From contig NZ_SMGE01000001.1 in assembly GCF_004339525.1 (NCBI RefSeq), positions 4,402,001 to 4,466,000 of the forward strand: a DNA stretch of 64,000 bases. The letters are read 5' to 3'. The position numbers were made by a program, and so were the translations under genes. This stretch comes from Flavobacterium sp. 90 (GTDB taxonomy: Bacteria; Bacteroidota; Bacteroidia; Flavobacteriales; Flavobacteriaceae). The first letter of the stretch is position 1. Every line of letters begins with the position of its first letter. The notes beneath the pieces were generated by a model. It did not search any database and was not told the DNA's origin. It was given only the letters and a program-made list of their open reading frames with translations. This document shows, piece after piece, positions 2 to 64,000 of the stretch.

Positions 2-601
2 GCGATGGTGATTTATTTTAGCAAAGACCTTTTTGGAAATTCTTTTTATGAATTACCGGAAGCTCAGGAAGTTAAAAAGTTTCTCTCTCAAGCCGTAAAA
101 GGAGTGTCGATTACCGGACAGACAAACGCAGTGGTTTCTAAAAAAATGGAAAAATTGCTCAAAAAGAAAGGTTTTGAAGTTATCATGGGACTTATTGAAA
201 TTTTGTTTCTTTTATCAAAAAGTAAAGATCTGAGGTTCATCAATGATAATTCGTATATCTCAGTTGATGAGGATAATAAAAATGACCGACTTGCGGAGGT
301 TTTTCAATATGTGAAGTCGAATTATAAAGAGGAAATATCGCTTGATGAAATCTCTAAAATTGCGAATCTGACACCTACATCTTTTTGTAGAATGTTTAAA
401 GCTAAAACCAAAAAACCTTTTGTAGAATATCTGAATGAAATCAGAGTGTCAAATGCTTGTAAATATCTAATTGAAACTGATTTAGGTATTTCGGAAATTG
501 CCTATGAATGTGGGTATAAAACAGCTTCAAACTTCAATAAGCTGTTCAAAAAATTAATAGGAACAACACCTAAGGAATACAGAAAAAATGCTGTAGCATA
601 A
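2..601 (+). CDS. AraC-family transcriptional regulator, 5'-truncated by window edge
   Basis: The reading frame is open to the left edge, so the gene probably begins outside the window; the first ATG visible is at 5. The last ~100 residues form a typical AraC/XylS double helix-turn-helix: a first HTH around SLDEISKIANLTPTSFCRMF and a second around GISEIAYECGYKTASNFNKL, ending in the family signature TPKEYRK. What is left of the N-terminus would be the end of a cupin or other effector domain, which cannot be assigned. It lies upstream of, and in the same direction as, the fucose genes, but 1.4 kb of repeat-filled DNA separates them, so a regulatory link is only a guess. Its 3' tail is duplicated at 1131-1273. 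Confidence 0.9.
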   Translation, partial: AMVIYFSKDLFGNSFYELPEAQEVKKFLSQAVKGVSITGQTNAVVSKKMEKLLKKKGFEVIMGLIEILFLLSKSKDLRFINDNSYISVDEDNKNDRLAEVFQYVKSNYKEEISLDEISKIANLTPTSFCRMFKAKTKKPFVEYLNEIRVSNACKYLIETDLGISEIAYECGYKTASNFNKLFKKLIGTTPKEYRKNAVA

Positions 602-856
602 TGTTATGCCGAATAAATCTCTCGTAAAGGCGTGAAGGTTTTTGTCATTTCATGATTACAATATTTGGTTTGCTATAAACTTCAAGGGATTGAAATCCCT
701 TGCTACAAAATAAATCATTCCTCTGGAATTTTATAAGGAGTTCCGGAGGAACAAAACATATTGTAGGGATGGATTTTAATCCATCATTCGCAATAGAAAC
801 CCAATATTGTCATTTCTCGGGATAACAAAAATGCGCAGACTCATTTTGAATATAAG
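602..856. repeat. Insertion-like spacer with small hairpin repeats
   Basis: This ~255 bp segment is bracketed by near-identical 15-mers (gtagcataatgttat near 594 and gtagcgtaatattat near 857), as if inserted or recombined just after the AraC stop codon. It contains short hairpins: aagggattgaaatccctt near 683-701, an interrupted cctctggaatt/ttccggagg pair near 719-749, and gatggattttaatccatc at 768-785. The last, with its leader attgtaggg, recurs at about 31553-31580, so it belongs to a dispersed family. No coding sequence is seen. Confidence 0.5.
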
Positions 857-933
857 TAGCGTAATATTATATACCTTTTTTGTAAACTGATATTTGTAAC
901 TGTTGATGTATTGTATGAATCAGGAATTGAAAT

Positions 934-1087
934 GTGCCGTTAGGTACTAAATATTGGTAGTCCTAATAGATTCGAAATTCGTTGGCGTGCCGTAGGTACG
1001 CAACAAAATGATAATTATTGCGTACCTACGGCACGCTAAATTTATTCTAATTCCCATTTTCTACCAATATTTAGTGCCTAACGGCAC
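934..1087. repeat. Palindromic intergenic element, copy A
   Basis: A 154 bp nested inverted repeat. The outer arms are gtgccgttaggtactaaata and its complement (ending tatttagtgcctaacggcac), and an inner stem pairs gcgtgccgtaggtacgcaa (985-1003) with its complement at 1018-1036. Related copies lie at 1345-1498, 14972-15120 and 50129-50282. No ORF is present; size and structure fit a REP/MITE-like non-autonomous element. Confidence 0.85.
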
Positions 1088-1130
1088 AAATTGTAAACTT
1101 TCAATTTTTGATTGGTATATATTATTAATA

Positions 1131-1273
1131 GTAAATATCTAATTGAAACTGATTTAGGTATTTCGGAAATTGCCTATGAATGTGGGTATAAAACAGCTTC
1201 AAACTTCAATAAGCTGTTCAAAAAATTAATAGGAACAACTCCTAAGGAATACAGAAAAAATGCTGTAGCGTAA
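1131..1273 (+). pseudogene. Duplicated 3' tail of the upstream AraC gene
   Basis: These 143 bases repeat positions 459-601 of the AraC gene with only about two or three substitutions, including the stop codon. No start codon or upstream part of the gene is present, so it is a remnant and not a gene. It lies exactly between two copies of the palindromic element. The block of tail plus element repeats with a period of 411 bp (for example 857-1128 against 1268-1539), so the tail was duplicated together with the element. Confidence 0.9.
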
Positions 1274-1344
1274 TATTATATACCTTTTTTGTAAACTGAT
1301 ATTTGATAACTGTTGATGTATTAATATGAATCAGGAATTGAAAT

Positions 1345-1498
1345 GTGCCGTTAGGTACTAAATATTGGTAGTCCTAATAGATTCGAAATTCGTTGGCGTG
1401 CCGTAGGTACGCAACAAAATGATAACTATTTCGTAACTACGGCACGCTAAATTTATTCTAATTCCCATTTTCTACCAATATTTAGTGCCTAACAGCAC
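1345..1498. repeat. Palindromic intergenic element, copy B
   Basis: Second copy of the 154 bp element, in the same orientation as copy A at an offset of 411 bp. It differs from A at a few positions that break pairing, such as gcgtaactacgg in the inner stem and aacagcac in the right outer arm. Flanking sequence on both sides also matches that of copy A. Confidence 0.85.
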
Positions 1499-1825
1499 AA
1501 ATTGTAAACTTTCAATTTTTGATTGGTATATATTATTAATTATGAATAGTATATAAGCTATGATCTAATGCTTTTTTTATTAAATCTATTTTATTTTTTC
1601 TGAAATTACGGATCAGTTTTTTGATCCTTTATTCGGTAAATTGATATTATTTTTTTAATTGATTCAAATTAATATTAAAATAGCTACTTATTTCGCTGTT
1701 TTTTATGAAATTAATTAAAAAGATAATAAATGCTTAATTAATGATAATTTTGACTTAAAATAAAACTTAATAATGCAATAATTTTATTTTTTTTAGATTG
1801 AAGCAAAATATTTTGTTCTATAAAT

Positions 1826-4071: not shown

Positions 4072-6627
4072 ATGAACATAACCAAAAAGATATTTTCGCT
4101 GAACAATTGCCTTGTTTTGCTGATCTCTTCGATGATCAGTTTTTCTGGATTTTCACAGAACACGCCGATAAAGAGAATGGGTTCGATTGATACTCAGTTA
4201 TTTGATGATAATTGGCTTTTTTCACGATACGGATCTCAGGCCGATGGATTAGTCAAAGAAGAACCAAAGAATTTAGAAGCCGTTTCTACGAATGAAACCA
4301 ACTGGGAAAAATTAAACTTGCCACATGATTGGGCGATCAAAGGACCTTTTAGAATTGAATTAAGAGGAGAAACAGGAAAATTGCCGTGGAAAGGAATTGG
4401 TTGGTATCGCAAACATTTTACTGTTCCGGCTTCAGACTCAGGGAAACAGATTTTTGTTGATTTTGATGGTGCTATGGCTAATGCCAAAATTTATTTGAAT
4501 GGAAATTATGTAGGAACCTGGCCTTATGGGTACAATTCTTTCCGAATGAATTTGACTCCATTTTTAAAATTTGGACAGGAAAATATCTTAGCCGTTCGTT
4601 TAGATACTGAAAACTGGGATTCTCGTTGGTATCCCGGCGCTGGAATTTATCGCCACGTTTGGTTGGTAAAAACCAATCCGGTACATGTTGGGCATTGGGG
4701 AACTTATGTTACAACTCCAAAAATTACCAAAGAAGCTGCTGATGTCAGAGTGCTGGTAAACGTTGAGAATGCCACAAATAAAACCGTAAAAGCCGTTGTT
4801 ACAACTGACTTATACGAGATAGATATCAATGACAAGCTTAAAACAAAAGTAGGTTCGTTAATTTCTTCAACTCTTGAAATCAAAGCTAACGGAACTGAAG
4901 AAGCAGAAACACATTCGGTTTTAAACAATCCTAAATTATGGGATTTAAAAACGCCAAATCGTTATGTGGCGCAAACTAAAGTTAGTGTTGACGGAAAAGT
5001 TGTTGACACTTATAATACGCCTTTCGGTGTTCGAACTATAGAATTTACAGCAAGAAACGGATTTCTTCTGAACGGGAAAAGAGTCGAAATCTTCGGAACT
5101 TGTAATCACCACGATTTAGGTGCTTTGGGAGCTGCAATCAATACTTCGGCATTAAAAAGACAATTGGTAATGTTGAAAGAAATGGGATGTAATTCTTTGC
5201 GTACTTCTCATAATCCTCCTGCTCCTGAATTGTTAGAATTAGCAGATAAAATGGGATTCCTGGTTTGGGACGAAGCTTTTGATGCGTGGAAAACAGGTAA
5301 GAAAAAATTAGATTATAATGTGATTTTTGATGAATGGCACGAAAAAGATCTAGTAGCGTTAGTACGCAGAGACAGAAATAATCCTTCGGTATTTATTTGG
5401 TCAATTGGAAATGAAATTCCAGATCAGCTGAACGTAAAAATGACCAAAGAATTGGCAGATATTATGCGTAGAGAAGATCCAACACGTCCAGTTTCAAATG
5501 GTTATAATGATCCTGATGGAGGAAGAGCATCTGGAGCTGCTGTTGCAATCGATGTTATGGGAATAAATTATTTTTTTAACCAACAACCAAAATGGGATGC
5601 TGATCCAAGATATGCGAATAAACCAACAATTGGAAGTGAAACAGCATCAACTGTAAGTTCTCGTGGAGAATATTTCTTTGACGATAAATACAACAAAACC
5701 TCCTGGCAAATTTCGTCTTATGACGACGCGTTTCCGGGATGGGGTTACTCGCCTGATGAACAATTTCGTATCAATGCAAAGTATCCACATTTATTGGGAG
5801 AATATGTTTGGACAGGTTTTGATTATTTAGGAGAACCAACACCTTACAATTCAGATGAAACGAACTTGCTGAATTTTAGAAGTGATCCTTCAAAGCAAGG
5901 AGAATTGGAGGCAAAATTAGCAGAATTGCAAAAAACTAATCCGCCATCAAGAAGTAGTTATTTCGGAATTATCGATTTGGCGGGTTTCCCAAAAGACCGC
6001 TATTATATTTACAAATCACATTGGAGACCAGATGTTCCAACGGCTCACATTCTTCCACATTGGAATTGGAGTGAACGTGTTGGACAAGTAGTTCCTGTAC
6101 ACGTTTATACTTCGGGAGATGAAGGAGAGTTGTTTCTTAACGGAAAAAGTCTTGGAAGAAAGAAAATGGAAGCAGGAAAAGATTTTCGTTTGACTTGGGA
6201 TGATGTGGTTTATGTTCCTGGTGAACTAAAAGTTGTTTGTTATAAAAAAGGTAAAAAATGGGCGACAGATATTGTCAAAACTACCGGAGCAGCAACAAAA
6301 TTGCAACTATCAGCAGATAGATCAGAAGTACTTGCAGACGATGTTGATTTGGTTTTCGTAACTGTTGATGTTGCTGATAAAGAGGGTTTAATGGTTCCTC
6401 GTACAAATCCATTAGTTAAATTTTCGATTGAAGGTGCAGGAGAAATCGTTGCCACTGATAATGGAGACGCAACTAGTTTTGTGCCTTTTCAAAGTACCGA
6501 AAAACCTGCTTATAACGGAAAAGTTTTGGTAATAGTTAAAGCGAAAAAAGGAGAAAAAGGACAATTTACGGTAAAAGCAGAAAGTGAAGGATTACAATCG
6601 GCAGCAACAACAATCAGAATCAAATAA
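4072..6627 (+). CDS. Glycoside hydrolase family 2, probable exported beta-galactosidase
   Basis: An 851-residue exported enzyme with a signal peptide of about 29 residues (ends SFSGFSQ). The order is: sugar-binding jelly roll (LPHDWAIKGPF, GWYRKHFTVP), Ig-like domain, TIM barrel, then DUF4982-like and Ig-like C-terminal domains. Catalytic residues are readable: acid/base Glu448 in SIGNE and nucleophile Glu523 in IGSET; TSHNPP is also conserved. The closest type appears to be Bacteroidota beta-galactosidases, which would remove terminal galactose from N-glycan antennae, but GH2 includes beta-mannosidases and glucuronidases. It follows the fucose genes by 57 bp and precedes GH29 by 19 bp, so the operon appears to couple glycan trimming with sugar catabolism. 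Confidence 0.9.
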   Translation: MNITKKIFSLNNCLVLLISSMISFSGFSQNTPIKRMGSIDTQLFDDNWLFSRYGSQADGLVKEEPKNLEAVSTNETNWEKLNLPHDWAIKGPFRIELRGETGKLPWKGIGWYRKHFTVPASDSGKQIFVDFDGAMANAKIYLNGNYVGTWPYGYNSFRMNLTPFLKFGQENILAVRLDTENWDSRWYPGAGIYRHVWLVKTNPVHVGHWGTYVTTPKITKEAADVRVLVNVENATNKTVKAVVTTDLYEIDINDKLKTKVGSLISSTLEIKANGTEEAETHSVLNNPKLWDLKTPNRYVAQTKVSVDGKVVDTYNTPFGVRTIEFTARNGFLLNGKRVEIFGTCNHHDLGALGAAINTSALKRQLVMLKEMGCNSLRTSHNPPAPELLELADKMGFLVWDEAFDAWKTGKKKLDYNVIFDEWHEKDLVALVRRDRNNPSVFIWSIGNEIPDQLNVKMTKELADIMRREDPTRPVSNGYNDPDGGRASGAAVAIDVMGINYFFNQQPKWDADPRYANKPTIGSETASTVSSRGEYFFDDKYNKTSWQISSYDDAFPGWGYSPDEQFRINAKYPHLLGEYVWTGFDYLGEPTPYNSDETNLLNFRSDPSKQGELEAKLAELQKTNPPSRSSYFGIIDLAGFPKDRYYIYKSHWRPDVPTAHILPHWNWSERVGQVVPVHVYTSGDEGELFLNGKSLGRKKMEAGKDFRLTWDDVVYVPGELKVVCYKKGKKWATDIVKTTGAATKLQLSADRSEVLADDVDLVFVTVDVADKEGLMVPRTNPLVKFSIEGAGEIVATDNGDATSFVPFQSTEKPAYNGKVLVIVKAKKGEKGQFTVKAESEGLQSAATTIRIK

Positions 6628-14924: not shown

Positions 14925-14971
14925 CTTTATAATAAATGTATGTGTTAGGTATTTATGCCAATCAAGAAAAT

Positions 14972-15120
14972 GTGCCGTTAGGCACTAAATATTGGTAGAA
15001 AATAAGAATTGGAATAAGTTAAGTTTAGCGTGCCGTAGGTACGCAATATTTATCATTTTGTTGCGTATGCCAACGAATTTCGAACCGATATGACTACCAA
15101 TATTTAGTGCCTAATAGTAC
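14972..15120. repeat. Palindromic intergenic element, copy C
   Basis: About 149 bp with the same outer arms as copies A and B (gtgccgttaggcactaaata on the left), but with the interior in reverse orientation. The inner right stem is damaged (gcgtatgccaacg). It lies between the susD terminator and a second hairpin. Confidence 0.85.
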
Positions 15121-15166
15121 AAATTGTAGATTTTAAACTCTTGATTTGTATTATTTGTTATAGCAC

Positions 15167-18617: not shown

Positions 18618-20801
18618 ATGAATTGTTTAAAAAGCTACAGGTTTATAATGTTTTTTTGTTTTTGTGCAGGGATTATAAATGCACAACAAAAAGCATTTTC
18701 GTATAAAAATCAGAATTTATCGATTGATAAAAGAGTAGACGATTTATTGAAACAATTGACTACCGAAGAGAAAATTTCTTTGTTAGGATTTGAAAGCAAA
18801 GAGGTAAAGCGATTGGATATTCCGCAATATAATTGGTGGAATGAATCTTTACACGGAATAGCCAGAGCAGGAAAGGCAACCGTTTTTCCACAAGCTATCG
18901 GAATGGCGGCTTCTTTTAATGATAATTTATTAAATGAAGTGGCGAATGCTATTTCAACTGAGGCAAGAGCTAAGAATAATATGGCTGTTGCCAAAGACCG
19001 CCGTTTGCAATATATGGGATTGAATTTTTGGTCACCAAATATTAATATTTTCAGAGATCCGCGTTGGGGAAGAGGACAGGAAACCTATGGAGAAGATCCT
19101 TTCCTTACCGGAAAAATGGGAACAGCTTACGTCAAAGGATTACAAGGAACTGATTCAAAATACATGAAAACAGCGGCTTGTGCCAAACATTTTGCCGTGC
19201 ACAGCGGACCTGAAAAAACAAGGCATTCGATTGATGTTATTGTAGACGAAAAAGATTTAAGAGAAACCTATTTATATGCTTTCAAAAAACTGGTTGATGC
19301 CCATGTAGAAACTGTTATGTGTGCTTATAATCGAGTAAATTCAGAACCTTGTTGTACCGGGAAAACCTTATTGAAGGATATTTTGCGCAATGAATGGAAA
19401 TTTGGCGGGCATGTTGTGACCGATTGTTGGGCATTACAGGATATTTACGAAAGTCATAAAACCTTGCCAAATAGTGTAACTGTTGCAGCGGCAGCAATTA
19501 AAGCCGGTGTAAATATGGATTGCAGCGGATTATTGCAAAAAGATGCAATCAATGCATTGAATCAGAAGTTGATTTCCCTAAAAGATATCGATAATGCATT
19601 AGCTCCAACTTTACGTACACAGTTCAAATTAGGATTTTATGACAAAGCAGAGGATAATCCGTATAGAAAATATGGAATAGACAGTATTGCCAATACGTAC
19701 CACAGAAATCTTAGCCGAAAAATGGCAGAGCAAAGTATGGTTTTGTTGAAAAATGGAGAAGTAGGCGAGAAAAAAACAAAACTGCTTCCTTTGAAAAAAG
19801 AGGATTATAAATCGTTGATGGTTGTTGGTCCAAATGCAGCTTCGTTAGATGCTTTGCTGGGAAATTACCATGGAATCACCGATAAAGCCGTAAATTTTGT
19901 AGAAGGAATTGCCGGAGCTGTAGATCCTGATACTCGTATAGAATATGATATGGGTTGCGATTTTAACGATACAACTAATTTTGGCGGAGTTTGGGCTGCT
20001 TCAATGGCCGATTTGACGATTGCAGTAATTGGTTTTACACCAGTTTATGAAGGCGAAGAAGGCGATGCTTTTTTGGCTGATGGTAAAGGTGATAGAAAAA
20101 ATATGGATTTACCAGCTTCGCATATTGCATACATCAAAGCACTTCGAAAAGGAACTAAAACGCCTCTTGTAGCTGTGGTAACAGGTGGTAGCGCTGTTGA
20201 TATTTCGGCGATTGAACCTTATGTTGATGCAATTGTTTTTGCGTGGTATCCGGGTGAACAAGGCGGAACAGCTTTAGCTAATCTTCTTTTTGGAAAAGTA
20301 TCTCCTTCAGGACATTTACCAATTAGTTTTTATAAATCTTTTAGCGATTTACCGGATTATAGTAGTTATGCGATGAAAGGCAGAACCTATCGTTATTTTG
20401 ATAAAGAAGTACAATATCCTTTCGGATTTGGATTAAGTTATAGCACTTTTGGATACAATTGGGTTCAAAAGCCAGAGAATATTAAAACTACTTCGGATAA
20501 AATTTCGATGCAAATTAAAATTGAAAACACCGGGCAATATAATGCAGATGAAGTAGCTCAGCTGTATATCGAATATCCAAATGTAGACAGAATGCCTTTG
20601 AAAGAATTGAAAGCTTTCAAACGAGTGTCAATTTCTAAAGGAGATTCTAAAACAATCACGTTAGAAATTCCGTTGGAAGAACTTCAAAAATGGGATGATG
20701 CTAAAAAACAATTCAAAATCTACGAAGGGAAATACAATGTAAGAATTGGTTCGAATTCCAGAGATGCAATGTTAGAAGCGAGTTTCGAAATTGTGAAGTA
20801 G
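18618..20801 (+). CDS. Glycoside hydrolase family 3 enzyme, beta-xylosidase/glucosidase-like
   Basis: A 727-residue exported GH3 enzyme: signal peptide (ends IINAQ), TIM-barrel domain with WWNESLHGIARAG, FRDPRWGRGQETYGEDP, KHFAVHSGPE and nucleophile Asp269 in VVTDCW, then the alpha/beta sandwich with its Glu-containing loop and a fibronectin-III-like C-terminus (VQYPFGFGLSYSTF). The pattern is closest to the plant/bacterial beta-xylosidase-like branch, but specificity in GH3 is hard to read. Core beta-1,2-xylose on plant N-glycans would fit the neighbouring genes, yet this is speculation. It is followed by a 14-bp tandem repeat and then GH92. Confidence 0.9.
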   Translation: MNCLKSYRFIMFFCFCAGIINAQQKAFSYKNQNLSIDKRVDDLLKQLTTEEKISLLGFESKEVKRLDIPQYNWWNESLHGIARAGKATVFPQAIGMAASFNDNLLNEVANAISTEARAKNNMAVAKDRRLQYMGLNFWSPNINIFRDPRWGRGQETYGEDPFLTGKMGTAYVKGLQGTDSKYMKTAACAKHFAVHSGPEKTRHSIDVIVDEKDLRETYLYAFKKLVDAHVETVMCAYNRVNSEPCCTGKTLLKDILRNEWKFGGHVVTDCWALQDIYESHKTLPNSVTVAAAAIKAGVNMDCSGLLQKDAINALNQKLISLKDIDNALAPTLRTQFKLGFYDKAEDNPYRKYGIDSIANTYHRNLSRKMAEQSMVLLKNGEVGEKKTKLLPLKKEDYKSLMVVGPNAASLDALLGNYHGITDKAVNFVEGIAGAVDPDTRIEYDMGCDFNDTTNFGGVWAASMADLTIAVIGFTPVYEGEEGDAFLADGKGDRKNMDLPASHIAYIKALRKGTKTPLVAVVTGGSAVDISAIEPYVDAIVFAWYPGEQGGTALANLLFGKVSPSGHLPISFYKSFSDLPDYSSYAMKGRTYRYFDKEVQYPFGFGLSYSTFGYNWVQKPENIKTTSDKISMQIKIENTGQYNADEVAQLYIEYPNVDRMPLKELKAFKRVSISKGDSKTITLEIPLEELQKWDDAKKQFKIYEGKYNVRIGSNSRDAMLEASFEIVK

Positions 20802-20806
20802 GGAGA

Positions 20807-20974
20807 AGATCGTAGAGGAAAGATTATAGAAGCAAGATTTTAGAGGGAAGATTATAGAGGGAAGATTGTAGAAGCAAGATTATAGAAGCAAGATTATAGA
20901 AGCAAGATTATAGAGGGAAGATTATAGAGGGAAGATTATAGAGGGAAGATTGTAGGTGGAAGATTGTAGAGGGA
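20807..20974. repeat. 14-bp tandem repeat, about 12 copies
   Basis: Twelve consecutive 14-bp units begin 5 bp after the GH3 stop codon. Each starts with agat; most read agattata or agattgta followed by one of two endings, gaagca or gaggga, and the two endings are grouped in blocks. The period is not a multiple of 3, and no ORF spans it. It is a minisatellite between two glycosidase genes and may vary in length between strains. Confidence 0.95.
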
Positions 20975-21079
20975 AGAGGAGCAGGTTTGGGGTTATTTGA
21001 AATTAGCGCAAATTCGTGTAATTCGTGGCGAAAAAAAAAATCAGATGTTACAACAGATGAAAATATCAAATTATAAAAG

Positions 21080-31372: not shown

Positions 31373-31660
31373 CCCGAAGCTTTGAGCTTCGGGAACAAAG
31401 CATTAAACACAATATTGTCATTTCGACGAAGGAGAAATCTTCGCAAGTAACTCCGCAACGAGAATCCAATCTTTGGCGAGCTTCTCGTGGAGATTTCTCC
31501 TTCGTCGAAATGACAAAAATGTGTAAAAGTAAAGAGCCTTTGGCTCGATTTATATTGTAGGGATGGATTTTAATCCGTCCTTCGTAATCAAAATCGCCAA
31601 TCTTTGTAGAGTTACACGTGGAGATTTCTCCTTCGTCGAAATGACAAAAATGTGTAGATT
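31373..31660. repeat. Cluster of palindromic repeats between FAH and GH20 genes
   Basis: Four hairpin modules sit in this gap. CCCGAAGC/GCTTCGGG at 31373-31393 is a short stem. A ~100 bp element at 31416-31515 has 25-bp perfect arms starting tgtcatttcgacgaaggaga. The hairpin ggatggattttaatccgtcc lies near 31561-31580 and is related to 768-785. A second, lone right arm of the 100 bp element lies at about 31617-31660. No ORF is present. The remaining 31661-31805 is the AT-rich leader of the GH20 gene. Confidence 0.85.
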
Positions 31661-47660: not shown

Positions 47661-49976
47661 ATGAAAATACTTTATCTGACATTAAGCTTAGCGACAATAG
47701 CTTGTGTTAATATAAACGCCCAGCAAATCTCAGACAAGAATGAGATTGTTGCGAAACATGAACTTAATTTCAAGGAACTCTCTACAACTTGGGATGAAGG
47801 TATTCCGCTGGGAAATGGAACAATCGGCGCCTTAGTATGGCAAAAAGGTAATAATCTACACATGTCCTTAGATCGCGCTGATTTATGGGATATGCGACCA
47901 ATGAAAGATTTGCACCGTAAAGAGTTTAGTTACAAATGGGTGCAAGGACAAGTGCAGAAGAATGATTATGGCATTGTACAAAAATATTTTGATGAACCTT
48001 ATGATACAGAACCCGCTCCAAGCAAAATACCCGGAGGTGCATTAGAATTTGAAATTCAAAATTGGGGATCGATTTCTAATGTGAATCTTTCGATTGAAGC
48101 TGCAGTATGTGAAGTAAAATGGGAAAACGGAACTGTTTTAAAAACATTTGTTCATGCTTTAAAACCCGTTGGATGGTTTCGTTTTGAGAATTTAAAAAAA
48201 GGATTTATCCCTCATTTGGTGCCTCCTAGATATCAGGGAGAAGTAAAAGTATCAGGTGATCCCGTAGGTGGCGATGATTTAGCCCGTCTGGGATATAAAC
48301 AAGGAAAAGTAACCGAAAAAGGCAATACCATATCATACGAACAAGAAGGTTGGGGAGGATTTAAGTATCAGATTAGTGTGAGTTGGAAGAAAATAAATGA
48401 CACAACTATTGAAGGTGTTTGGAGCATTACGTCTCAATATCCCAACAAAAAAATAAACAATGTTGCAGAAAATGTTGTCAAAAAAACATTAGAAGAGGGA
48501 TATAATAAAGATTTGGCAAGTCATATTTTGTGGTGGAAAAAATTCTGGAACCAATCCAGTATTCAGGTACCGGATGCTTTATTAGAAAAACAATGGTATT
48601 TGGAACAATATAAATTTGGTTCTGCAGCCAGAAGAGGAGCTCCGCCTATTTCTTTGCAAGCTGTCTGGACTGCAGATAATGGACGTTTACCGCCTTGGAA
48701 AGGCGATTATCATCATGATCTAAATACACAATTAAGTTATTGGCCTTCGTACAGTGGCAATCACATGGAGGAAGCGATGGGATATATCGATCATCTTGAG
48801 GAAAATAAAGCTAATTATAAACGCTATACCAAAATGTATTTTGCCAATGATGGTCTCGCCGTACCGGGTGTTACAACACTTGATGGTACAGAAATGGGAG
48901 GTTGGATTCAGTATTCTTTTTCGCCTACCGTATCGGCCTGGTTGAGTCAGCATTATTATTTGCAATGGCGCTATAGCATGGATCGCAAATTTTTGAAAGA
49001 AAAAGCATATCCATGGATAAAAGATGTTGCCAGACATTTAGAACAAATTACAATAAAAGACGAAAAAGGCTTTAGAAAATTGCCGATTAGTTCAAGTCCT
49101 GAAATGAATGATAATGATATTAGTGCCTGGTTTAGCCAAAGTTCGAATTATGATTTGGCATTAATGACTTTCACTTTTAAAACAGCAGCAGAATTGGCAA
49201 ATGAACTAGGATTGAAGCAAGAAGCAAATCATTGGAAACAAATATTAAATGAATTTCCTGATTTTGCGCGTACGGCAAATAATGAAATGATGGTTACACC
49301 AACAATGCCCTACACGGAATCTCACAGACATTTTTCGCATTTGATGGCAATTCATCCGCTTGGTCTGATTAAATGGGAAGATGGTGAAAAATCGCAAGCA
49401 ACTATTAAAAACACGATTAGTCTGGTAGATAAAATTGGACCGGATTACTGGTGTGGATATTCTTATTCCTGGATGGCAAATCTTAAAGCCAGAGCAAAAG
49501 ATGGAGAAGGCGCTACCAAAGATTTAGAAATTTTTGCTAAAGCATTTTGTCTTAAAAATAGTTTTCATGCAAATGGAGATCAGACAAAATCCGGTTATTC
49601 AAAATTTCAGTATCGTCCATTTACATTGGAAGGAAACTTTGCGTTTGCAGCCGGTTTACAGGAAATGTTATTACAAAGTTATGCCGGTTTTATAGAAATC
49701 ATGCCCGCCGTACCAGTTATGTGGAAAGATATTTCTTTTAATACATTGAGAGCAGAAGGCGCATTTCTGGTTAGTGCTTCAAAGAAAGATGGAATTATAA
49801 CAGAAATTAAAATCGTAGCAGAGCAAGGAGGAATAACCAAATTAAAATTACCCTTTAAAAACTGGAAAGTTGAGTCAAGTCATCTTGCAAAAACAAAACA
49901 GGTTTCAGAGGAATTTGTAGAACTGGAATTTGATAAAGAAGGCTGGATTATTTTAAAAAATAAAGAGACAAAATAA
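47661..49976 (+). CDS. GH95-like glycoside hydrolase, divergent alpha-L-fucosidase family member
   Basis: A 771-residue exported enzyme (signal peptide ends INAQ). Layout fits GH95: N-terminal beta domain (EGIPLGNGTIGALVW, LHMSLDRADLWD), an (alpha/alpha)6 barrel (SLQAVWTADN, HHDLNTQLSYWPS, HRHFSHLMAIHP) and a C-terminal beta domain. Residues aligning with known GH95 catalytic positions appear as Asn355, Glu481 and, where an Asp is expected in the DGNFG motif, Glu657 (LEGNFAF). GH95 enzymes are inverting alpha-1,2-fucosidases or alpha-L-galactosidases; this divergent member may have other specificity. Its 3' end is partly duplicated 119 bp downstream. Confidence 0.75.
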   Translation: MKILYLTLSLATIACVNINAQQISDKNEIVAKHELNFKELSTTWDEGIPLGNGTIGALVWQKGNNLHMSLDRADLWDMRPMKDLHRKEFSYKWVQGQVQKNDYGIVQKYFDEPYDTEPAPSKIPGGALEFEIQNWGSISNVNLSIEAAVCEVKWENGTVLKTFVHALKPVGWFRFENLKKGFIPHLVPPRYQGEVKVSGDPVGGDDLARLGYKQGKVTEKGNTISYEQEGWGGFKYQISVSWKKINDTTIEGVWSITSQYPNKKINNVAENVVKKTLEEGYNKDLASHILWWKKFWNQSSIQVPDALLEKQWYLEQYKFGSAARRGAPPISLQAVWTADNGRLPPWKGDYHHDLNTQLSYWPSYSGNHMEEAMGYIDHLEENKANYKRYTKMYFANDGLAVPGVTTLDGTEMGGWIQYSFSPTVSAWLSQHYYLQWRYSMDRKFLKEKAYPWIKDVARHLEQITIKDEKGFRKLPISSSPEMNDNDISAWFSQSSNYDLALMTFTFKTAAELANELGLKQEANHWKQILNEFPDFARTANNEMMVTPTMPYTESHRHFSHLMAIHPLGLIKWEDGEKSQATIKNTISLVDKIGPDYWCGYSYSWMANLKARAKDGEGATKDLEIFAKAFCLKNSFHANGDQTKSGYSKFQYRPFTLEGNFAFAAGLQEMLLQSYAGFIEIMPAVPVMWKDISFNTLRAEGAFLVSASKKDGIITEIKIVAEQGGITKLKLPFKNWKVESSHLAKTKQVSEEFVELEFDKEGWIILKNKETK

Positions 49977-50050
49977 GAATGCTAATCAAGATTTGAAAGT
50001 CTATAATTTGTGCCATCAGGCACTAAGTATTGTCGGAAAACAGGAATATT
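49932..50050. repeat. 119-bp tandem duplication unit spanning the GH95 gene end
   Basis: Positions 49932 onward repeat at 50051 onward with a 119 bp offset and only a few substitutions. The unit contains the last 14 codons of the GH95 gene, its stop, a ~33 bp tail and the first arm of the palindromic element. In this first unit the element is truncated after ~40 bp (50010-50050) and its interior reads in reverse orientation compared with copy D. Confidence 0.9.
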
Positions 50051-50095
50051 GATAAAGAAGGCTGGATTGTTTTAAAAAATAAAGAGAAAAAATAA
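50051..50095 (+). pseudogene. Duplicated 3' tail of the GH95-like gene
   Basis: Fourteen codons plus stop (DKEGWIVLKNKEKK) copy the end of the GH95-like protein (DKEGWIILKNKETK). There is no start codon; it is a remnant created by the 119 bp duplication and lies directly before element copy D. Confidence 0.9.
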
Positions 50096-50128
50096 GAATG
50101 CCAATCAAGATTTGAAAGTCTATAATTT

Positions 50129-50282
50129 GTGCCGTTAGGCACTAAGTATTGGTAGTCCTAATAGATTCAAAATTCATTGGCGTGCCGTAGGTACGCAACA
50201 AAACGATAACTATTGCGTACCTACGGCACGCTAAATCTATAACGATTCCTGTTTTCTACCAATATTTAGTGCCAAACGGCAC
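50129..50282. repeat. Palindromic intergenic element, copy D
   Basis: A 154 bp copy with near-perfect inner stem (gcgtgccgtaggtacgcaa and complement) and outer arms starting gtgccgttaggcactaagta. It is in the same orientation as copies A and B and ends 37 bp before the GH20 start codon, so it may lie in that gene's leader or promoter. Confidence 0.88.
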
Positions 50283-50319
50283 ATTTTAACCTTTGATTCG
50301 CATTAATAACAATAATAAT

Positions 50320-56774: not shown

Positions 56775-59700
56775 ATGGATCACATCAACGACAAAATAGC
56801 TAAAGACTATTGGCATAAAAAAAACAATAGGATTGTTCATTCTAAGGAAAGTTTTTCAGGAAGTTTTTTTATGGATTTTATTATAGTTGATGCCGCTGAA
56901 CTTTCTTATTTCTATAAATTGACAGCGGAAAATTCAGTTGCAGAATTTACGGTGTTAATGGCACTTTATAATATGCTGCTTCAACGATATTTTGAAGATT
57001 ATAATGTTTTGTCTTTGAAGTCATTTTTAGCGTCTCAAAAAACACTTTTGTGTTATGAATTTCAATCGATTGGTCAAAAAACGATAAAGGAGTTTATACA
57101 AGAAACTAAAGAAGAAGTTCAGGAAGTCTATAAGTATGCTCCTTATTACGCAGATGCTATTATCGAGCAAACTTCGTATGTAAATTATATTCCTTTTCAA
57201 TTTAATTATGGAGCGAATAATGAGCCTGCTGAATCTTATCAAGGATTGTCATTTCATATTGAAAAGCTTGAAAATAAGGATTTACGTGTTTCATTACATT
57301 ATTCTGAGAAATTTACAGAGAATAATATTGTGCTGCATTTTTTAAAGAATTTTAAAAGATGGCTTGAAGAATTAGAGGAAAATATTAATATATCGGCATC
57401 TAAAATACCTTTAATTTCAAAAGAGGAACAAAAAGCCCTATTGCATACATTAAGCACGGAGAAATGCGACTACGACTACACTATAACACTAGCTGGAATT
57501 GTCGAAAGACAAGCAAATAAAACTCCTCAAAATATTGCTGTTGTCTGTGGGGAAACGGCACTTACTTATGAATCTCTTAATGAACAGGCAAACCAGCTTT
57601 CTCATTATTTTATTAAAGAGCATGGCGTTTTAGAAGGTGATTTTGTTGGGGTTAAATTAGAAAGAAGTGAAAAACTGATTATAGCAATATTGGCTGTTTT
57701 AAAGGCAGGAGCGACTTATGTTCCAATAGATGTTAACTATCCCGAAGAAAGAATTGCCTATATCGAAAAAGATAGTAAGTGCAAGCTGGTTATTGATGTT
57801 GCGATATACAGTGATTTTCAGAAAAACCAAGTTAAATACGCTACTGAAAATCCATTATCTAACAGAAAACCAGATGATCTGGCGTATATTATCTATACTT
57901 CGGGTACTACAGGTAATCCAAAAGGAGTGATGATTACGCATCAAAATGCCGTAGCTTTGATTTATTGGGCACAAGAAGAATTCAATTTAGAAAGTTTTGA
58001 TATTGTTTATGCTGCTACATCACATTGTTTTGATCTCTCAGTGTATGAAATGTTCTATCCACTTTCTGTTGGAAAAAAAATAAAAGTATTAAATAATGCT
58101 TTAGAGATTGGGGCAGAATTAGCCAAAGATCATAAGATTTTATTGAATACAGTTCCTTCGAGTATTCGAAATATTTTAGAAGAAGGTTTTTCGCTTGATA
58201 ACGTTAGTGTAATTAATCTTGCAGGCGAGCCCTTTCCGGTAGATATTGCTAAAAAGCTTCTACAAACCAATGCTGAAATTAGAAATTTATACGGTCCTTC
58301 AGAAGATACAACTTATAGTACTTGTTATCAGTTGTCTTCAGAAAAAGTATATCAGAGCATTCCAATTGGTAAACCTATTACCAATACACGAGGTTATATC
58401 TTAGATGAAGAGCTGCAATTAGTGCCGGCTGGTATTATGGGGAAATTATATCTTTCGGGAGATGGAGTTGCTAAAGGTTATCTCAATCAGCCAGAATTAA
58501 CCACAGCAAAATTTATAGAAAATCCTTTTGAAGAAGGGGAAAAGATGTATGACACAGGTGATTTGGCAAAATGGATGCCTGATGGAAATCTTGCTTATCT
58601 GGGGAGAAAAGATCATCAAATAAAACTGAGAGGTTATCGTATTGAACTTGGAGAAATAGAAAATGTTATGCTTTCGTTTTCTGAAAACATGCTGCAAGCA
58701 GTTGTTGCTGTTAAAAAAAATAGAGGCGAAGATGTTTTAGTGGGATATTATATAGAAAACATCGCTTTAGATAAAACACATTTGAGAGCCTATTTAGAAA
58801 AACAGCTCCCGGCTTATATGATTCCCTCATATTTTATAAAAGTAGAAACTGTTCCGTTAACTCCTAACGGAAAAGTAAACAAGAATGCTCTTCCTGAAAT
58901 AGAAGATAATAGCATTGTTAAAAAAGAATATGTTGCACCTGTTGATGCCTTAGAAAAAGAATTAGTTCAAATTTGGGAACAAACTCTGGGAACTTCACCC
59001 ATAGGTATGAACGATCATTTCTTTGAATTGGGAGGTCATAGTCTAATGATTTCGCAAATTATTAATGCTGTCTATAAAAAGCTTCATATGAGTGTTCCGT
59101 ATAAAGTGTTTTATACTAATCCTACTCTAAGTGATTTAAGAAAAGTATTGAAGAATCAGGAGTATTTGTCAATTCCTGTGGCTCCTTATTCAGAATCGTA
59201 TCCATTGACACATTCGCAAAACCGATTGTGGCTATTAAGTCAACTGGAAGGTGGGAACGAAGCTTATCAAATCTCAGGCGCAGTATTACTAAAAGGAAAT
59301 GTTGACGACGTTAACTTTACTAAAGCATTCAATAAGATTGTTGAACGTCACGAAATTCTGAGGACTTTCTTTAAAAAAGAGGAAGAAGGAGTTGTGAAGC
59401 AATTTATTGTTCCAAATCACGAATTTCAATTTGTGATAGAAACCAAAGATTTCTCTCAGGAGAAATCGCCCTATCATAATGTGCAGGATTATATTGCAGA
59501 AAAAGACAAACTAAGCTATAATCTTACTGAAGCACCTTTATTTAGAGCTTCATTACTAAAAATAAAGGATGATAATTTTGTCTTTTATTTATCAATTCAT
59601 CATCTTATAAGTGATGGTTGGTCTCTTAAAGTATTGACCGATCAGGTTTTAGAATGTTATGATGCTTTACAGATTGGAGAAACAATCTCTTTGCCTGAAA

Positions 59701-62700
59701 ATCCTGTTCAATTTAAAGATTATGCAATATGGCAACTCGAAGAGCAGAAAAAAGAAAAATATCAGATTGCAAAAGAATTTTGGATCAAACAATTTGAAGA
59801 AACAATACCAGCGCTTCAATTGCCAGGTTATACTAACCGCCCTGTGGTAAAAACATATTGTGGGAATCAGTTGCGTCATGTTTTCTCTACAGAATTACTT
59901 ACCGAACTACAAAACCTATCCAAAGATTCTCAGGTGACACTATTTGCAGTGTTGATGACCGGAGTAAAAACACTATTGTCAAGATACAGCAATCAGGATG
60001 ATATTGTTATTGGAACTCCTATAGCCGGACGTGAACATCCGGATTTAGAACACCAGATAGGTTTGTATATTAATACACTTGCAATACGAACATCGGTAAA
60101 CCAGAAAGAAGGATTTTCGGCATTGCTTCAAAGAGAAGGAAAACAACTTTTGGAAGCCTATGAACATCAAAGCTTTCCATTTGATGTTTTGATTGAGCAG
60201 TTAAAAATTTCCAGAGATACATCAAGATCTGCTTTGTTTGACATTATGGTGGTGCTGCAGAATCAACATCAGATATCCAACTTTAAAAATAAATTTTCGT
60301 CTGATATTGCCATAGAAGAATTTGAAATAGACAGAAATGTAGCTCCTTTTGATATTGTATTTACTTTTACAGAAAAAGAAACACTTCACTTAGAAATTCT
60401 TTACAATTCAGATCTTTATAGCTCGGATTTTGTTCAGGGAATAATCAAGCATCTGGAGAATCTATTCTATCAGATAGTTCAAAAACCTGAAATACTTCTG
60501 GAAGAAATAGATTTAGTTTCCGAAGATGAAAAAGAAATCCTATTACATACCTTTAATAATACCGATGTAGATTTTGATACTGAAAAAACGGTAATAAATT
60601 TGTTTTTGGAGCAAGTAGCAAAAACACCTCAAAACAAGGCTGTAATAGCAAATGATGGAGCGCTAAGCTATGCGGAATTAGATGAATTATCCAATAGATT
60701 AGCAAATTATCTCATTCAAAATTATAAGATCGCTCAGTATGATTTGGTGGCCGTAAAACTAGAGAGAGGGGAACGACTGCTTATATCATTACTGGGGATC
60801 TTAAAAACAGGTGCTGCCTATGTGCCTGTAGATACCAACTATCCTGAAAACAGGATCAGGGATATCTTAAATGATGTTACCGGCAAGGTGGTTATAGATG
60901 ATACTTTTCTGGATGACTTTTATTGCCAGGAAGAACTGTCTGCTGTACAACCGCAAATACAAGCTAAAAGCACGGATCTGGCTTATGTAATTTATACTTC
61001 CGGATCTACAGGAAAACCAAAAGGAGTGATGATTGCGCATCAGAGTTTGGTGAATCTGTGTTTTTGGCATAAAGAAACCTATGGCGTTAATGAAACCAGC
61101 AGAGGAACTTTGTTTTCAGGAGTTGCTTTTGATGCGTCCGTTTGGGAAATTTACCCATATCTGATATCTGGAGCCACACTTTATCCGATTCAAAAAGAAG
61201 AAATACGTCTTCAGATACCAATGTTAGTTAGCTTTTTACAAAAAAATGGAATAACGCATTCTTATCTGCCTTCCAAAATATGTCAGGATATCATGGCAGA
61301 AGACGGTTTAGAATTGTCTACAATCATCCTTACAGGAGGCGAAAGTCTGAATTATTCTACAACCACTTCTTTACAAATATATAATAACTACGGACCAACT
61401 GAAAATACAGTAGTAACGACTTATTATGATTGCAAAAAAGCTGTAAAAGAAAAGGTTTCCATAGGCAGTCCCATATCAAATACCCGAGTTTATATTCTGT
61501 CTGAAAACCTAAAATTACAACCAATTGGTGTTATAGGAGAGTTGTGTGTTTCCGGAATTGGACTTTCAAAAGGTTATTTGCATCAACCGGAACTTACGGC
61601 AGAGAAATTTATTCAAAACCCATTTAAAGGAGAAGGAAAACTATATAAAACCGGAGATTTAGCCCGATGGCTTCCTGATGGCACTCTTGAATTTGCAGGC
61701 AGAAAAGATAATCAGGTAAAAATACGAGGCAATAGGGTTGAATTGAGCGAAATTGAACATGTTATTAGAGAATATGAGCCTGCAATTGCCAATGCTTTGG
61801 TATTGGTAAAAGAGATAAATAAAGAACCTGCTATAATTGCCTATTATACCACGAAAGTAGCTATAGATAAAAAATTACTTCGAGATTACTTAAAAGAACA
61901 GTTAGCAGACTATATGGTTCCCAGTTATTACATCGCTCTGGAAACGTTACCGTTGAATGCAAACGGGAAAGTAGACATTTCAAAATTGCCAACTATTTCG
62001 GAAGCAGATATCCTGAAAAAAGAATATGTTGCACCAGAAAACAATACTCAGGCAAAGATTGCTGTAATCTGGCAAGAACTTTTAGGGCATCAAAAAATAG
62101 GTATTACTGACGATTTCTTTGAACTTGGAGGACATAGCTTACTGCTAACTAAACTACTAAGCGAATATCAGAAAACATTTAAAGTATCAATTGACCTTAA
62201 AACACTCTACGCAAATACCACTTTAAAAAATCATGCAGTTCTTTTAAATGATTCGGCAGAAGAAGTGCTGGAGATTGAAAAATTAGCTCATCAGGAATAT
62301 TATGATTTATCTCCTTCACAAATTCGATATTGGTTACTTTATAAAATACACGGAAAATCCAGAGAATTCAATATTTACAGCACGTTTGAATTGCCGGATG
62401 ATTTAAATGCTGTCGCTTTTGAAGAAGCGTTTAATATCCTTTTGAAGCGTCATGAGATTTTAACGAGCATATTTGTTGAAGACGCCGGTATTCCTAAACA
62501 AAAAGTCTTGTCAAATTTGTTGATGTCCATTCCTTTCTTTGAATCAGAAGCAGCAATTAAAAAAGAGGTGTTTGAGCATGAGTTTGATCTTGAAGTGTGT
62601 CCTTTATTTAAAGTAGCCATTTTAAAAGTAGCCACTACGCATACATTGTATTTCAATATGCACCACAGTATTGGCGACGGTTGGTCTATGGGAATTATAT

Positions 62701-64000
62701 CGAGAGATTTAATGGATATTTATAATGCCATAATAGCGGGCAAAACTGTAGAACTTCCAGAATTGTCAATACAATATAAAGAGTATGCACAATGGCAAAA
62801 TAAGCTGCTGCAATCGCCGGAAGTTACTGTTCAGGAAAATTATTGGAAAGAAAAACTTGCCGGACCTTTATCTTATTTGCAGTTACCATTAGATTATAAT
62901 TCAAAATTAAAAAAGGCAGAAACCTCTTCTTCATATACCGTATATATTACAGAAGAAAGAAAGAAAAAAATAGAGGAATTATCCAGAAAAAATGGCATTA
63001 GTGTATTTGCAGTATTTGTTGCAACGCTTAAAATGCTATTGTTCAGACTTACTTCAGAAGAAGATATTATTATAGGAATCCCCGTGGCAAACCGAAACCA
63101 TTATCAATTAAAAGACTTGGTAGGTTGTTTTATTAATACGTTGATGCTGCGCGATAAAATAAGCGAAAATATATCCTTTCAGACATGGCTGCAAGAGGTT
63201 AATGATACATTAGTAAATGCTTTAGTGCACCAAAACTATCCTTTTGAACAGTTATTAGAACTGATCGATGCTCCTCAAAATGACAATCGTTTTCCGTTAA
63301 GTCCGGTATTTTTAAATATGGTTGATTTTGATGGAAAAGTGCTTGAAACAATAACAGAATTTAGTCCAAATCACAAACTTTTGGAAGCAACTCCAAAATT
63401 TGATATGGAATGCTACATAAAAAGTTTTGCAAATGGATATAGTATTAACTGTGTATATGATCATGAACTCTTTAAAAAAGAAACGATTCAATATTGGATA
63501 AATGCCTATTTATCAATCATTGATCAGGTAATAGAGAATGACAAAGTAACATTACAGACTATAAAAGTATTTGAAGATTATATTTCTCAGGAAGAAGATT
63601 TAAAACCTGCAAATGATTTTGAATTTTTTGAGGCAGACGAAATCCAACAAAGTATAGCAAAACGATTTGAAAAACAAGTAGAGCGATTTCCAAATCATAC
63701 AGCAGTTTTTGCCAATCAGACCGCACTTAGTTATAAGATGCTGAATAATTGTGCTAATCATTTGGCGAGACAAATCAATGAAAAAGCCAATCCTGATACA
63801 AAACGAGTAGCGCTGCTTTTAAATCACAATGAAACCTGTGTAATAGGAATGCTGGGAGTTCTTAAAGCCGGATATGCCTATGTGCCTATAGATGCCAACA
63901 GTCCTTTAAGCAGGATTCAGTACATAATTGAAGATTCTGGGTGTAACCAGTTGGTTTGTAATGATGCTACTGTAGAAAAAGCGCAACAATTACAACAAGA
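56775..64000 (+). CDS. Nonribosomal peptide synthetase, 3'-truncated by window edge
   Basis: The frame stays open from the ATG at 56775 to the window end (over 2400 residues; no stop). Domains: a half condensation domain without its active-site half (~1-225); A1 (~235-690, YTSGTTGNPKG at 374); carrier T1 (GGHSL, Ser756); C (~800-1220, HHLISDG at 942); A2 (~1260-1740, YTSGSTGKPKG at 1407); T2 (Ser1788); C (~1830-2240, HHSIGDG at 1963); and the start of A3 (from ~2295). By alignment to GrsA, I read the A1 pocket as D-L-Y-N-N-A-L-T-Y, like alanine-type codes, and A2 as D-A-W-Y-L-G-N-V-V, like leucine codes; both are hand readings. It makes a peptide starting on this protein. The product is unknown. 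Confidence 0.95.
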   Translation, partial: MDHINDKIAKDYWHKKNNRIVHSKESFSGSFFMDFIIVDAAELSYFYKLTAENSVAEFTVLMALYNMLLQRYFEDYNVLSLKSFLASQKTLLCYEFQSIGQKTIKEFIQETKEEVQEVYKYAPYYADAIIEQTSYVNYIPFQFNYGANNEPAESYQGLSFHIEKLENKDLRVSLHYSEKFTENNIVLHFLKNFKRWLEELEENINISASKIPLISKEEQKALLHTLSTEKCDYDYTITLAGIVERQANKTPQNIAVVCGETALTYESLNEQANQLSHYFIKEHGVLEGDFVGVKLERSEKLIIAILAVLKAGATYVPIDVNYPEERIAYIEKDSKCKLVIDVAIYSDFQKNQVKYATENPLSNRKPDDLAYIIYTSGTTGNPKGVMITHQNAVALIYWAQEEFNLESFDIVYAATSHCFDLSVYEMFYPLSVGKKIKVLNNALEIGAELAKDHKILLNTVPSSIRNILEEGFSLDNVSVINLAGEPFPVDIAKKLLQTNAEIRNLYGPSEDTTYSTCYQLSSEKVYQSIPIGKPITNTRGYILDEELQLVPAGIMGKLYLSGDGVAKGYLNQPELTTAKFIENPFEEGEKMYDTGDLAKWMPDGNLAYLGRKDHQIKLRGYRIELGEIENVMLSFSENMLQAVVAVKKNRGEDVLVGYYIENIALDKTHLRAYLEKQLPAYMIPSYFIKVETVPLTPNGKVNKNALPEIEDNSIVKKEYVAPVDALEKELVQIWEQTLGTSPIGMNDHFFELGGHSLMISQIINAVYKKLHMSVPYKVFYTNPTLSDLRKVLKNQEYLSIPVAPYSESYPLTHSQNRLWLLSQLEGGNEAYQISGAVLLKGNVDDVNFTKAFNKIVERHEILRTFFKKEEEGVVKQFIVPNHEFQFVIETKDFSQEKSPYHNVQDYIAEKDKLSYNLTEAPLFRASLLKIKDDNFVFYLSIHHLISDGWSLKVLTDQVLECYDALQIGETISLPENPVQFKDYAIWQLEEQKKEKYQIAKEFWIKQFEETIPALQLPGYTNRPVVKTYCGNQLRHVFSTELLTELQNLSKDSQVTLFAVLMTGVKTLLSRYSNQDDIVIGTPIAGREHPDLEHQIGLYINTLAIRTSVNQKEGFSALLQREGKQLLEAYEHQSFPFDVLIEQLKISRDTSRSALFDIMVVLQNQHQISNFKNKFSSDIAIEEFEIDRNVAPFDIVFTFTEKETLHLEILYNSDLYSSDFVQGIIKHLENLFYQIVQKPEILLEEIDLVSEDEKEILLHTFNNTDVDFDTEKTVINLFLEQVAKTPQNKAVIANDGALSYAELDELSNRLANYLIQNYKIAQYDLVAVKLERGERLLISLLGILKTGAAYVPVDTNYPENRIRDILNDVTGKVVIDDTFLDDFYCQEELSAVQPQIQAKSTDLAYVIYTSGSTGKPKGVMIAHQSLVNLCFWHKETYGVNETSRGTLFSGVAFDASVWEIYPYLISGATLYPIQKEEIRLQIPMLVSFLQKNGITHSYLPSKICQDIMAEDGLELSTIILTGGESLNYSTTTSLQIYNNYGPTENTVVTTYYDCKKAVKEKVSIGSPISNTRVYILSENLKLQPIGVIGELCVSGIGLSKGYLHQPELTAEKFIQNPFKGEGKLYKTGDLARWLPDGTLEFAGRKDNQVKIRGNRVELSEIEHVIREYEPAIANALVLVKEINKEPAIIAYYTTKVAIDKKLLRDYLKEQLADYMVPSYYIALETLPLNANGKVDISKLPTISEADILKKEYVAPENNTQAKIAVIWQELLGHQKIGITDDFFELGGHSLLLTKLLSEYQKTFKVSIDLKTLYANTTLKNHAVLLNDSAEEVLEIEKLAHQEYYDLSPSQIRYWLLYKIHGKSREFNIYSTFELPDDLNAVAFEEAFNILLKRHEILTSIFVEDAGIPKQKVLSNLLMSIPFFESEAAIKKEVFEHEFDLEVCPLFKVAILKVATTHTLYFNMHHSIGDGWSMGIISRDLMDIYNAIIAGKTVELPELSIQYKEYAQWQNKLLQSPEVTVQENYWKEKLAGPLSYLQLPLDYNSKLKKAETSSSYTVYITEERKKKIEELSRKNGISVFAVFVATLKMLLFRLTSEEDIIIGIPVANRNHYQLKDLVGCFINTLMLRDKISENISFQTWLQEVNDTLVNALVHQNYPFEQLLELIDAPQNDNRFPLSPVFLNMVDFDGKVLETITEFSPNHKLLEATPKFDMECYIKSFANGYSINCVYDHELFKKETIQYWINAYLSIIDQVIENDKVTLQTIKVFEDYISQEEDLKPANDFEFFEADEIQQSIAKRFEKQVERFPNHTAVFANQTALSYKMLNNCANHLARQINEKANPDTKRVALLLNHNETCVIGMLGVLKAGYAYVPIDANSPLSRIQYIIEDSGCNQLVCNDATVEKAQQLQQ

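Follow-up and report, generated by a model that had tools for sequence, protein, structure and literature searches.

The end of a GH95-family glycoside hydrolase gene in Flavobacterium sp. 90 is duplicated beside a multicopy palindromic element, and we give somewhat better than even chances to the reading that a replicative template switch at one arm of the element caused this duplication and that the element is a REPIN/MITE-like relative of a Y1-transposase unit. This reading is supported by the anatomy of the locus, the likeness of the element to the ends of tnpA loci, relatives free of the duplication, similar cases elsewhere, a microhomology at the junction and flips of the element interior.

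Anatomy of the GH95 tail duplication and of its element

The locus lies in the window, by which we mean the whole 64,000-nt stretch of DNA analysed. The gene was assigned to GH95 from its matches to PF22124 (177 bits) and PF21307, the GH95 catalytic and C-terminal domains. Its end and the repeats behind it are laid out as follows.

47661..49976, + strand: GH95-family glycoside hydrolase gene, the last 47 bp of which are duplicated
49930..50032, + strand: unit 1, made of the GH95 tail (last 47 bases), the outer arm AATCAAGATTTGAAAGTC and the hairpin-1 arm (103-nt direct repeat)
50036..50047, - strand: truncated interior of unit 1, reversed, GAAAACAGGAAT (exact 12-nt match)
50043..50050, + strand: junction back into the GH95 tail (letter comparison)
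50049..50151, + strand: unit 2, the second GH95 tail copy and left arm, running into the full element (103-nt direct repeat)
50098..50301, + strand: full element with its outer arms, core 50123-50288 (self-folding, multicopy)
50129..50155, + strand: left end, hairpin 1 (GTGCC-GTTA-GGCAC), 8-nt spacer and GGTAG (pattern search and spacing)
50177..50234, + strand: inner palindrome, the hairpin-2 pair with arms 50177-50198 and 50213-50234 (repeat search)
50256..50282, - strand: right end, an inverted copy of the hairpin-1/GGTAG arm (repeat and pattern searches)

The sequence-only reading had described the gene end as duplicated with a 119-bp period, and the two units (49930-50032 and 50049-50151) indeed form a direct repeat of 103 nt with 95% identity and a period of 119; over the full 119-nt period 102 of 119 letters are equal, and the outside DNA copied beside the lone arm matches its source at 84 of 89 letters. 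That reading had further taken the copied stretch to be the 3' end plus its downstream flank: the duplication stands, but part of this "flank" is the element's own outer arm. Unit 1 was correctly seen as a truncated element with a reversed interior and unit 2 as full-length, as GAAAACAGGAAT, which follows the unit 1 arm, occurs letter for letter (12 nt) on the reverse complement of the full element but not on its forward strand, while the full element follows unit 2. At the junction (50043..50050) we found a 5-nt microhomology, GGAAT, with its source at 49925, and one extra A; this is the one junction whose microhomology was examined in detail.

In the proposed mechanism, the growing strand would copy the GH95 tail and the left arm, switch to the inverted right arm, copy about a dozen interior bases backwards, fall back at the 5-nt match GGAAT, 118 bases upstream, and recopy the GH95 tail and the whole element. 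One such compound switch accounts for the tail, the arm, the reversed scrap and the second full copy in a single event. We infer both the order of these events and replication, rather than a transposase, as their driver; as mechanisms, replication is rated first and the transposase second.

The GH95 region was matched in 8 of 398 genomes of the genus, the own genome included. Flavobacterium saccharophilum, F. sp. LC2016-12 and F. cutihirudinis (loci L084, L085 and L086) have a single GH95 tail, with no element within the 400 nt behind it. Because the nearest relatives carry other DNA downstream, a two-sided empty site is unreadable at this locus.

The element is a nested palindrome of about 160-200 bp without a gene of its own, which folds as single-stranded DNA at -56.6 kcal/mol (z -11.6). 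Each end runs from hairpin 1 over 8 nt to GGTAG and, after about 24 nt more, to hairpin 2: among the 84 ends scored from 102 examined, hairpin 1 lies 8 nt from GGTAG in 68, and GGTAG lies 22-26 nt from hairpin 2 in 77. The own 6.65-Mb genome holds about 62 copies, some of them shortened, at 52 places and 10 further loci. The 52 places were hand-picked from 106 matches, with 40 of 89 candidates scored, and one of them is a 72-nt piece; an arm-pattern search gave 109 matches (0 for the reversed-pattern control), and those listed, with their fetched flanks, add at least 10 element loci, some with a shortened interior. The 10 added loci are left out of the tandem-cluster, orientation, direct-repeat-enrichment and gene-context counts. 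The element is intergenic by a simple ORF rule, and its usual site is downstream of genes: by the same rule 36 of 39 own loci touch a gene 3' end, with 13 between two gene 3' ends, 23 between same-direction genes, 2 between two starts (divergent) and 1 unclassified. A survey for presence only, with two candidates scored per genome, placed the element in 44 of the 398 genomes, own included.

Copied flanks and reversed interiors at other element copies

The duplication is tied to the element, and it recurs beside other copies of it. A second case within the window, also claimed from the letters alone, proved real: 459-607 repeats at 1131-1279, and 914-1137 repeats at 1325-1548. The features of this case, and of a further element in the window, are listed below.

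933..1088, + strand: element of this case, copy 1 (genome and window element matches)
1131..1279, + strand: second copy of the 3' end of an AraC-type gene (5..601), source 459-607 (98% direct repeat)
1344..1499, + strand: element of this case, copy 2 (genome and window element matches)
14967..15125, - strand: single element with reversed interior (compared with the orthologous G249 site)

The AraC-type gene tail is single in the relatives G249 and G424; G249, which is 90% identical to the own genome across window positions 4072-6627, has at this site one AraC-type gene tail and a lone right arm. A third case was found at the G249 orthologue of the element at 14967, where a truncated arm and a copied terminator-like flank stand with a full element whose interior is forward; there (L259 in G249) the outside DNA copied beside a lone arm matches at 112 of 126 letters. 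Recurrence at another site in this separately assembled relative, the single contig of the own genome and the 5% divergence between the copies make it extremely improbable that the pattern is an assembly artefact. For G249, both flanks were found for 9 of 39 own loci within 1,250 kb: the counterparts of 723868, 4308386, 4589164 and 124461 carry no element, with flanks too diverged for a precise join, and the counterpart of 131742 is too rearranged to read.

Lone arms stand beside a full element in five arrays, three of which also repeat DNA from outside the array, the G249 case at the orthologue of 14967 being one of the three. In the own genome, a full element is adjoined by two or three consecutive lone arms at 4161.5-4162.1 kb and 6040.4-6040.8 kb; at 6040.6 kb outside DNA is copied next to the full element (29/30 letters), and the 4161-kb arrays have no long outside copy (at most 8 matching letters on the left side and at most 15 on the right). 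Local direct repeats occur at 11 of 39 own element loci (40 kb), compared with 8 sites over 1,250 kb in a related genome, where one of the 8 is itself an element. They exceed chance at element loci, with the qualification that the control comes from another species and that 9 of the 11 own loci are runs of adjacent element copies.

Two of the four direct-repeat sites in the window (20799 and 31466) are not at this element. Positions 20799-20977 hold a 14-bp tandem repeat array at the end of the ORF 18618-20801, and 31405-31656 hold a cluster of direct and inverted repeats of the GTCATTTCGACGAAGGAGAAATC type; in G249, the site corresponding to the 124461 element carries a similar sequence. Repeated stretches with a period of about 3.1 kb at 57681-63916 resemble what we take to be adenylation-domain motifs of a peptide synthetase. 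Elsewhere in the genus, a 375-bp unit with a full element and its flank is duplicated at 98% in genome G083 (locus L170).

Four of the 9 tandem clusters of the own genome have a copied unit that clearly contains DNA present outside the cluster as well: at 131742 this is a terminator-like hairpin (by eye), at 4402933 the AraC-type gene 3' end, and at 4781995 and 5988905 intergenic DNA. The earlier proposal that gene 3' ends are what is copied goes too far, as nothing singles them out: the copied DNA is whatever adjoins an arm, be it a gene tail (of GH95 or of the AraC-type regulator), a hairpin resembling a terminator (by eye, at 131742 and in G249) or intergenic sequence. The DNA between copies has no clear match to outside DNA in the other 5 of 9 clusters, and these, together with both 4161-kb arrays, which lack a long outside copy, may have another origin. 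Independent adjacent insertions, with the repeated gene tail as an incidental feature, would suit such clusters and an element so numerous and intergenic; we regard them as very unlikely, given that 4 of 9 clusters and the GH95 case carry outside DNA copied along with the element, that adjacent copies have the same called orientation in all nine clusters compared and that the gene tail is duplicated at the GH95 locus itself. Template switching, which the sequence-only reading had already offered among its mechanisms, is partly supported as first worded: it fits the GH95 junction with its GGAAT microhomology, and its stress on gene 3' ends goes beyond the data.

Reversed interiors, first noticed in unit 1, were found across the family. 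With the linkers fixed, alignment scores gave 13 copies with the longer outer arm at left, 13 with it at right, 16 with it on neither side and 9 unclear or double (n=51); in 5 of these 51 the inner loop is turned around with respect to the linkers. At both sites that are occupied in the two species (4364630 and 4416967; read by eye against G249) the linkers are inverted but the outer arms keep their orientation; the inner loop at 4364630 does not change direction between the species, also by eye. Such flips exist, as do whole-element tandem duplications with flanks (131742, 4402933, 4781995 and 5988905), and both are ingredients of an alternative history of the GH95 locus in which an element with reversed interior was tandemly duplicated with its flank, most of copy 1 was then deleted and copy 2 was inverted. 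This succession needs more steps, plus a deletion in G249 that again ends near GGTAG, and we think it rather unlikely.

A Y1 transposase gene with similar ends

As suggested from the window alone, a TnpA-like gene with matching repeats does exist elsewhere in the genome, at 376.4 kb; three full Y1_Tnp genes, plus two weaker matches, were identified in the genome. Upstream of the 376.4-kb tnpA lie five arms of the form GTTCC-nnTA-GGAAC-TAAATrTyGGTAr, and arms are found on the upstream side only. The strict arm motif occurs 51 times in 30 loci of this tnpA and its close relatives (99.7 kb; 23 of 30 with one or more), against 4 times in 80 control loci (693 kb, mostly from other genera), 0 times in 52.5 kb of Flavobacterium control sequence and a mean of 0.7 (maximum 3) in block shuffles. 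The arm motif is missing from 28 of 30 loci fetched around other Y1 genes of element-bearing genomes; the remaining 2 are pieces of one broken close relative.

The plan of the upstream end, present in the own and in related Flavobacterium genomes, was scored in 24 of the 30 tnpA loci and reads hairpin 1, GGTAG, hairpin 2, as in the element. Hairpin 1 is 8 nt from GGTAG in 14 of the 24 and 5-10 nt in the rest, and GGTAG is 21-28 nt from hairpin 2 in 21 of the 24; loci L216 and L222 could not be parsed for end spacing. A mirrored downstream end is present at 6 of 30 loci. Because the same end plan is found at the tnpA loci and in the element, the element is read as a gene-less form of the tnpA unit: it looks like a MITE/REPIN-like, presumably non-autonomous relative of a Y1-transposase unit with double-hairpin ends.

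Across the 398 genomes, 31 have a match to tnpA at 72% identity or more over its length, and 17 of these carry the element (one of them, G334, has an internal stop in tnpA); with 44 element genomes the co-occurrence gives a Fisher p of 2e-10, for which shared ancestry is a confounder. The 27 of 44 element genomes without a close full-length tnpA include five without any match at E 1e-4 and five that hold tnpA fragments at 72-89% identity (G209, G214, G281, G335 and G373). Stems also differ, with GTGCC in the element and GTTCC at the own tnpA locus, although the relative L217 has GTGCC at the gene. The differing stems and the 27 genomes suggest that a simple pairing of element and tnpA would not hold.

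The protein scores 105.8 bits against PF01797 and 83.1 against the IS200 model NF033573 (cut-off 55), but 27.5 against REP_Tyr_transpos (cut-off 80). It carries the HUH and Tyr motifs and is similar to transposases of solved structure, ISHp608 TnpA among them. The motifs DHIH, FEWQ and YIQNQEAHH of the translated gene correspond to the subclass 1.2 signature DH[IV]H, WQ, Y---Q--HH, by which, rather than by the survey's clustering, we class it as a predicted TnpA_Y1 subclass 1.2 transposase.

Such an enzyme could itself be the cause. TnpA would cut the single-stranded hairpin-1 arm immediately behind GGTAG, the 3' end released there would be re-joined or re-primed in the upstream flank, adding arm-plus-flank units, and cuts at both GGTAG would flip the interior. 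Beyond the catalytic motifs and the likeness to ISHp608 TnpA, this agrees with the short interior kept after GGTAG (1-3 nt at L259 in G249, 6-7 nt at 6040.6 kb and 11 nt in the GH95 case), with both 4161-kb arrays, which keep AAA after GGTAG before non-element DNA begins, and with two G249 lone arms without duplication that also stop a few nt from GGTAG (by eye). The ends of lone arms lie near GGTAG more frequently than would be expected from simple slippage, which counts against template switching; several ends near GGTAG leave room for transposase nicking. The position of the break varies, however, from 1 to 11 nt after GGTAG, the GH95 case reads GTCGG in place of GGTAG and has its microhomology deeper in the interior, inspection by eye showed no shared motif at the outer break, and the A-run after GGTAG is an alternative possible cause. 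We consider transposase cutting a possible explanation, though not a probable one, and keep the replicative template switch as the preferred account.

Relation to known repeat systems and significance

Like REPINs and BIMEs with their RAYT, the element consists of short palindromic intergenic inverted pairs with related repeats beside a Y1 gene, and like REPINs it forms tandem clusters that take in flanking DNA (excerpts of PMC3116915 and PMC3733652). There is precedent for this in the tandem REPINs including flanks described for P. fluorescens in excerpts of PMC3116915 and in the GTAG REPs reiterated with flanking DNA in those of PMC3733652. The element shares with GTAG REPs and REPINs the inverted, dispersed, intergenic, multicopy pair but not the 5' GTAG at the hairpin foot, its GGTAG lying 8 nt 3' of a 5-bp hairpin; its double-hairpin ends also set it apart from REPINs, and it has no cognate class 2 RAYT, the TnpA scoring below the NCBIfam cut-off for REP-associated tyrosine transposases and above that for IS200. 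The likeness to TIRtrons with their TIRYT is partial: as excerpted in PMC3733652, these have a Y1 gene bounded by inverted repeats that are in part self-complementary, and copies of the ends are dispersed; here the upstream end was scored at 24 of 30 tnpA loci and the downstream end at 6 of 30; those excerpts name Bacteroidetes only for CGTC repeats. With IS200/IS605 the unit shares the HUH and Tyr transposase and hairpins near the ends, but IS200/IS605 have no terminal inverted repeats, while the ends of the element and of 6 tnpA loci are inverted, and the own genome has many gene-less copies versus one close gene copy. As in MITEs, there is no own gene, and the ends share their plan with those of a transposase-bearing unit.

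The signature DH[IV]H, WQ, Y---Q--HH, the length of about 150 aa and the Bacteroidetes host agree with TnpA_Y1 subclass 1.2 as given in excerpts of Quentin et al. 2018 (PMC6006769). In those excerpts the subclass is without REPs and generally without IS200 end structures; unlike the surveyed members, for which no REP is listed there, the genes with its motifs here adjoin hairpin repeats. We found no published account of this Flavobacterium repeat family, or of a REP link for subclass 1.2, in the open-licence papers searched. Relative to the precedents, the novelty lies in the bacterial host group, in how the ends are built, in the probable tie to subclass 1.2 and in interiors that flip from one species to the other.

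Further repeats were seen near Y1 genes and in the window. A canonical GTAG-footed repeat, GTAGGGATGGATTTTAATCC, lies at window positions 758-799 and 31552-31593, with 37 pattern matches in the genome and 0 in the control; two of these matches flank a second Y1 transposase gene (2416.6 kb) as inverted copies. In the flanks of L033 another Y1 transposase gene, the third, is closely followed by a CCCAAGGTT-AACCTTGGG palindrome, which may represent a third repeat family.

These comparisons suggest that a single genome has at least two repeat families belonging to TnpA_Y1 subclass 1.2, for which the survey lists no REP. How REPIN-like repeats build tandem clusters with flanks is unsettled in the literature covered; with small arrays, sister-species comparisons and one candidate enzyme at hand in environmental bacteria, the replication and transposase models are therefore separable. 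A bolder and distinctly tentative idea, to which we give little credence for now, is that subclass 1.2 enzymes may be working single-strand recombinases of Bacteroidota with repeat families of their own, which would cut near GGTAG, turn interiors around in situ and build up arm-plus-flank arrays from neighbouring DNA step by step. If this were true, a host-resident transposase would repeatedly copy gene ends and terminators.
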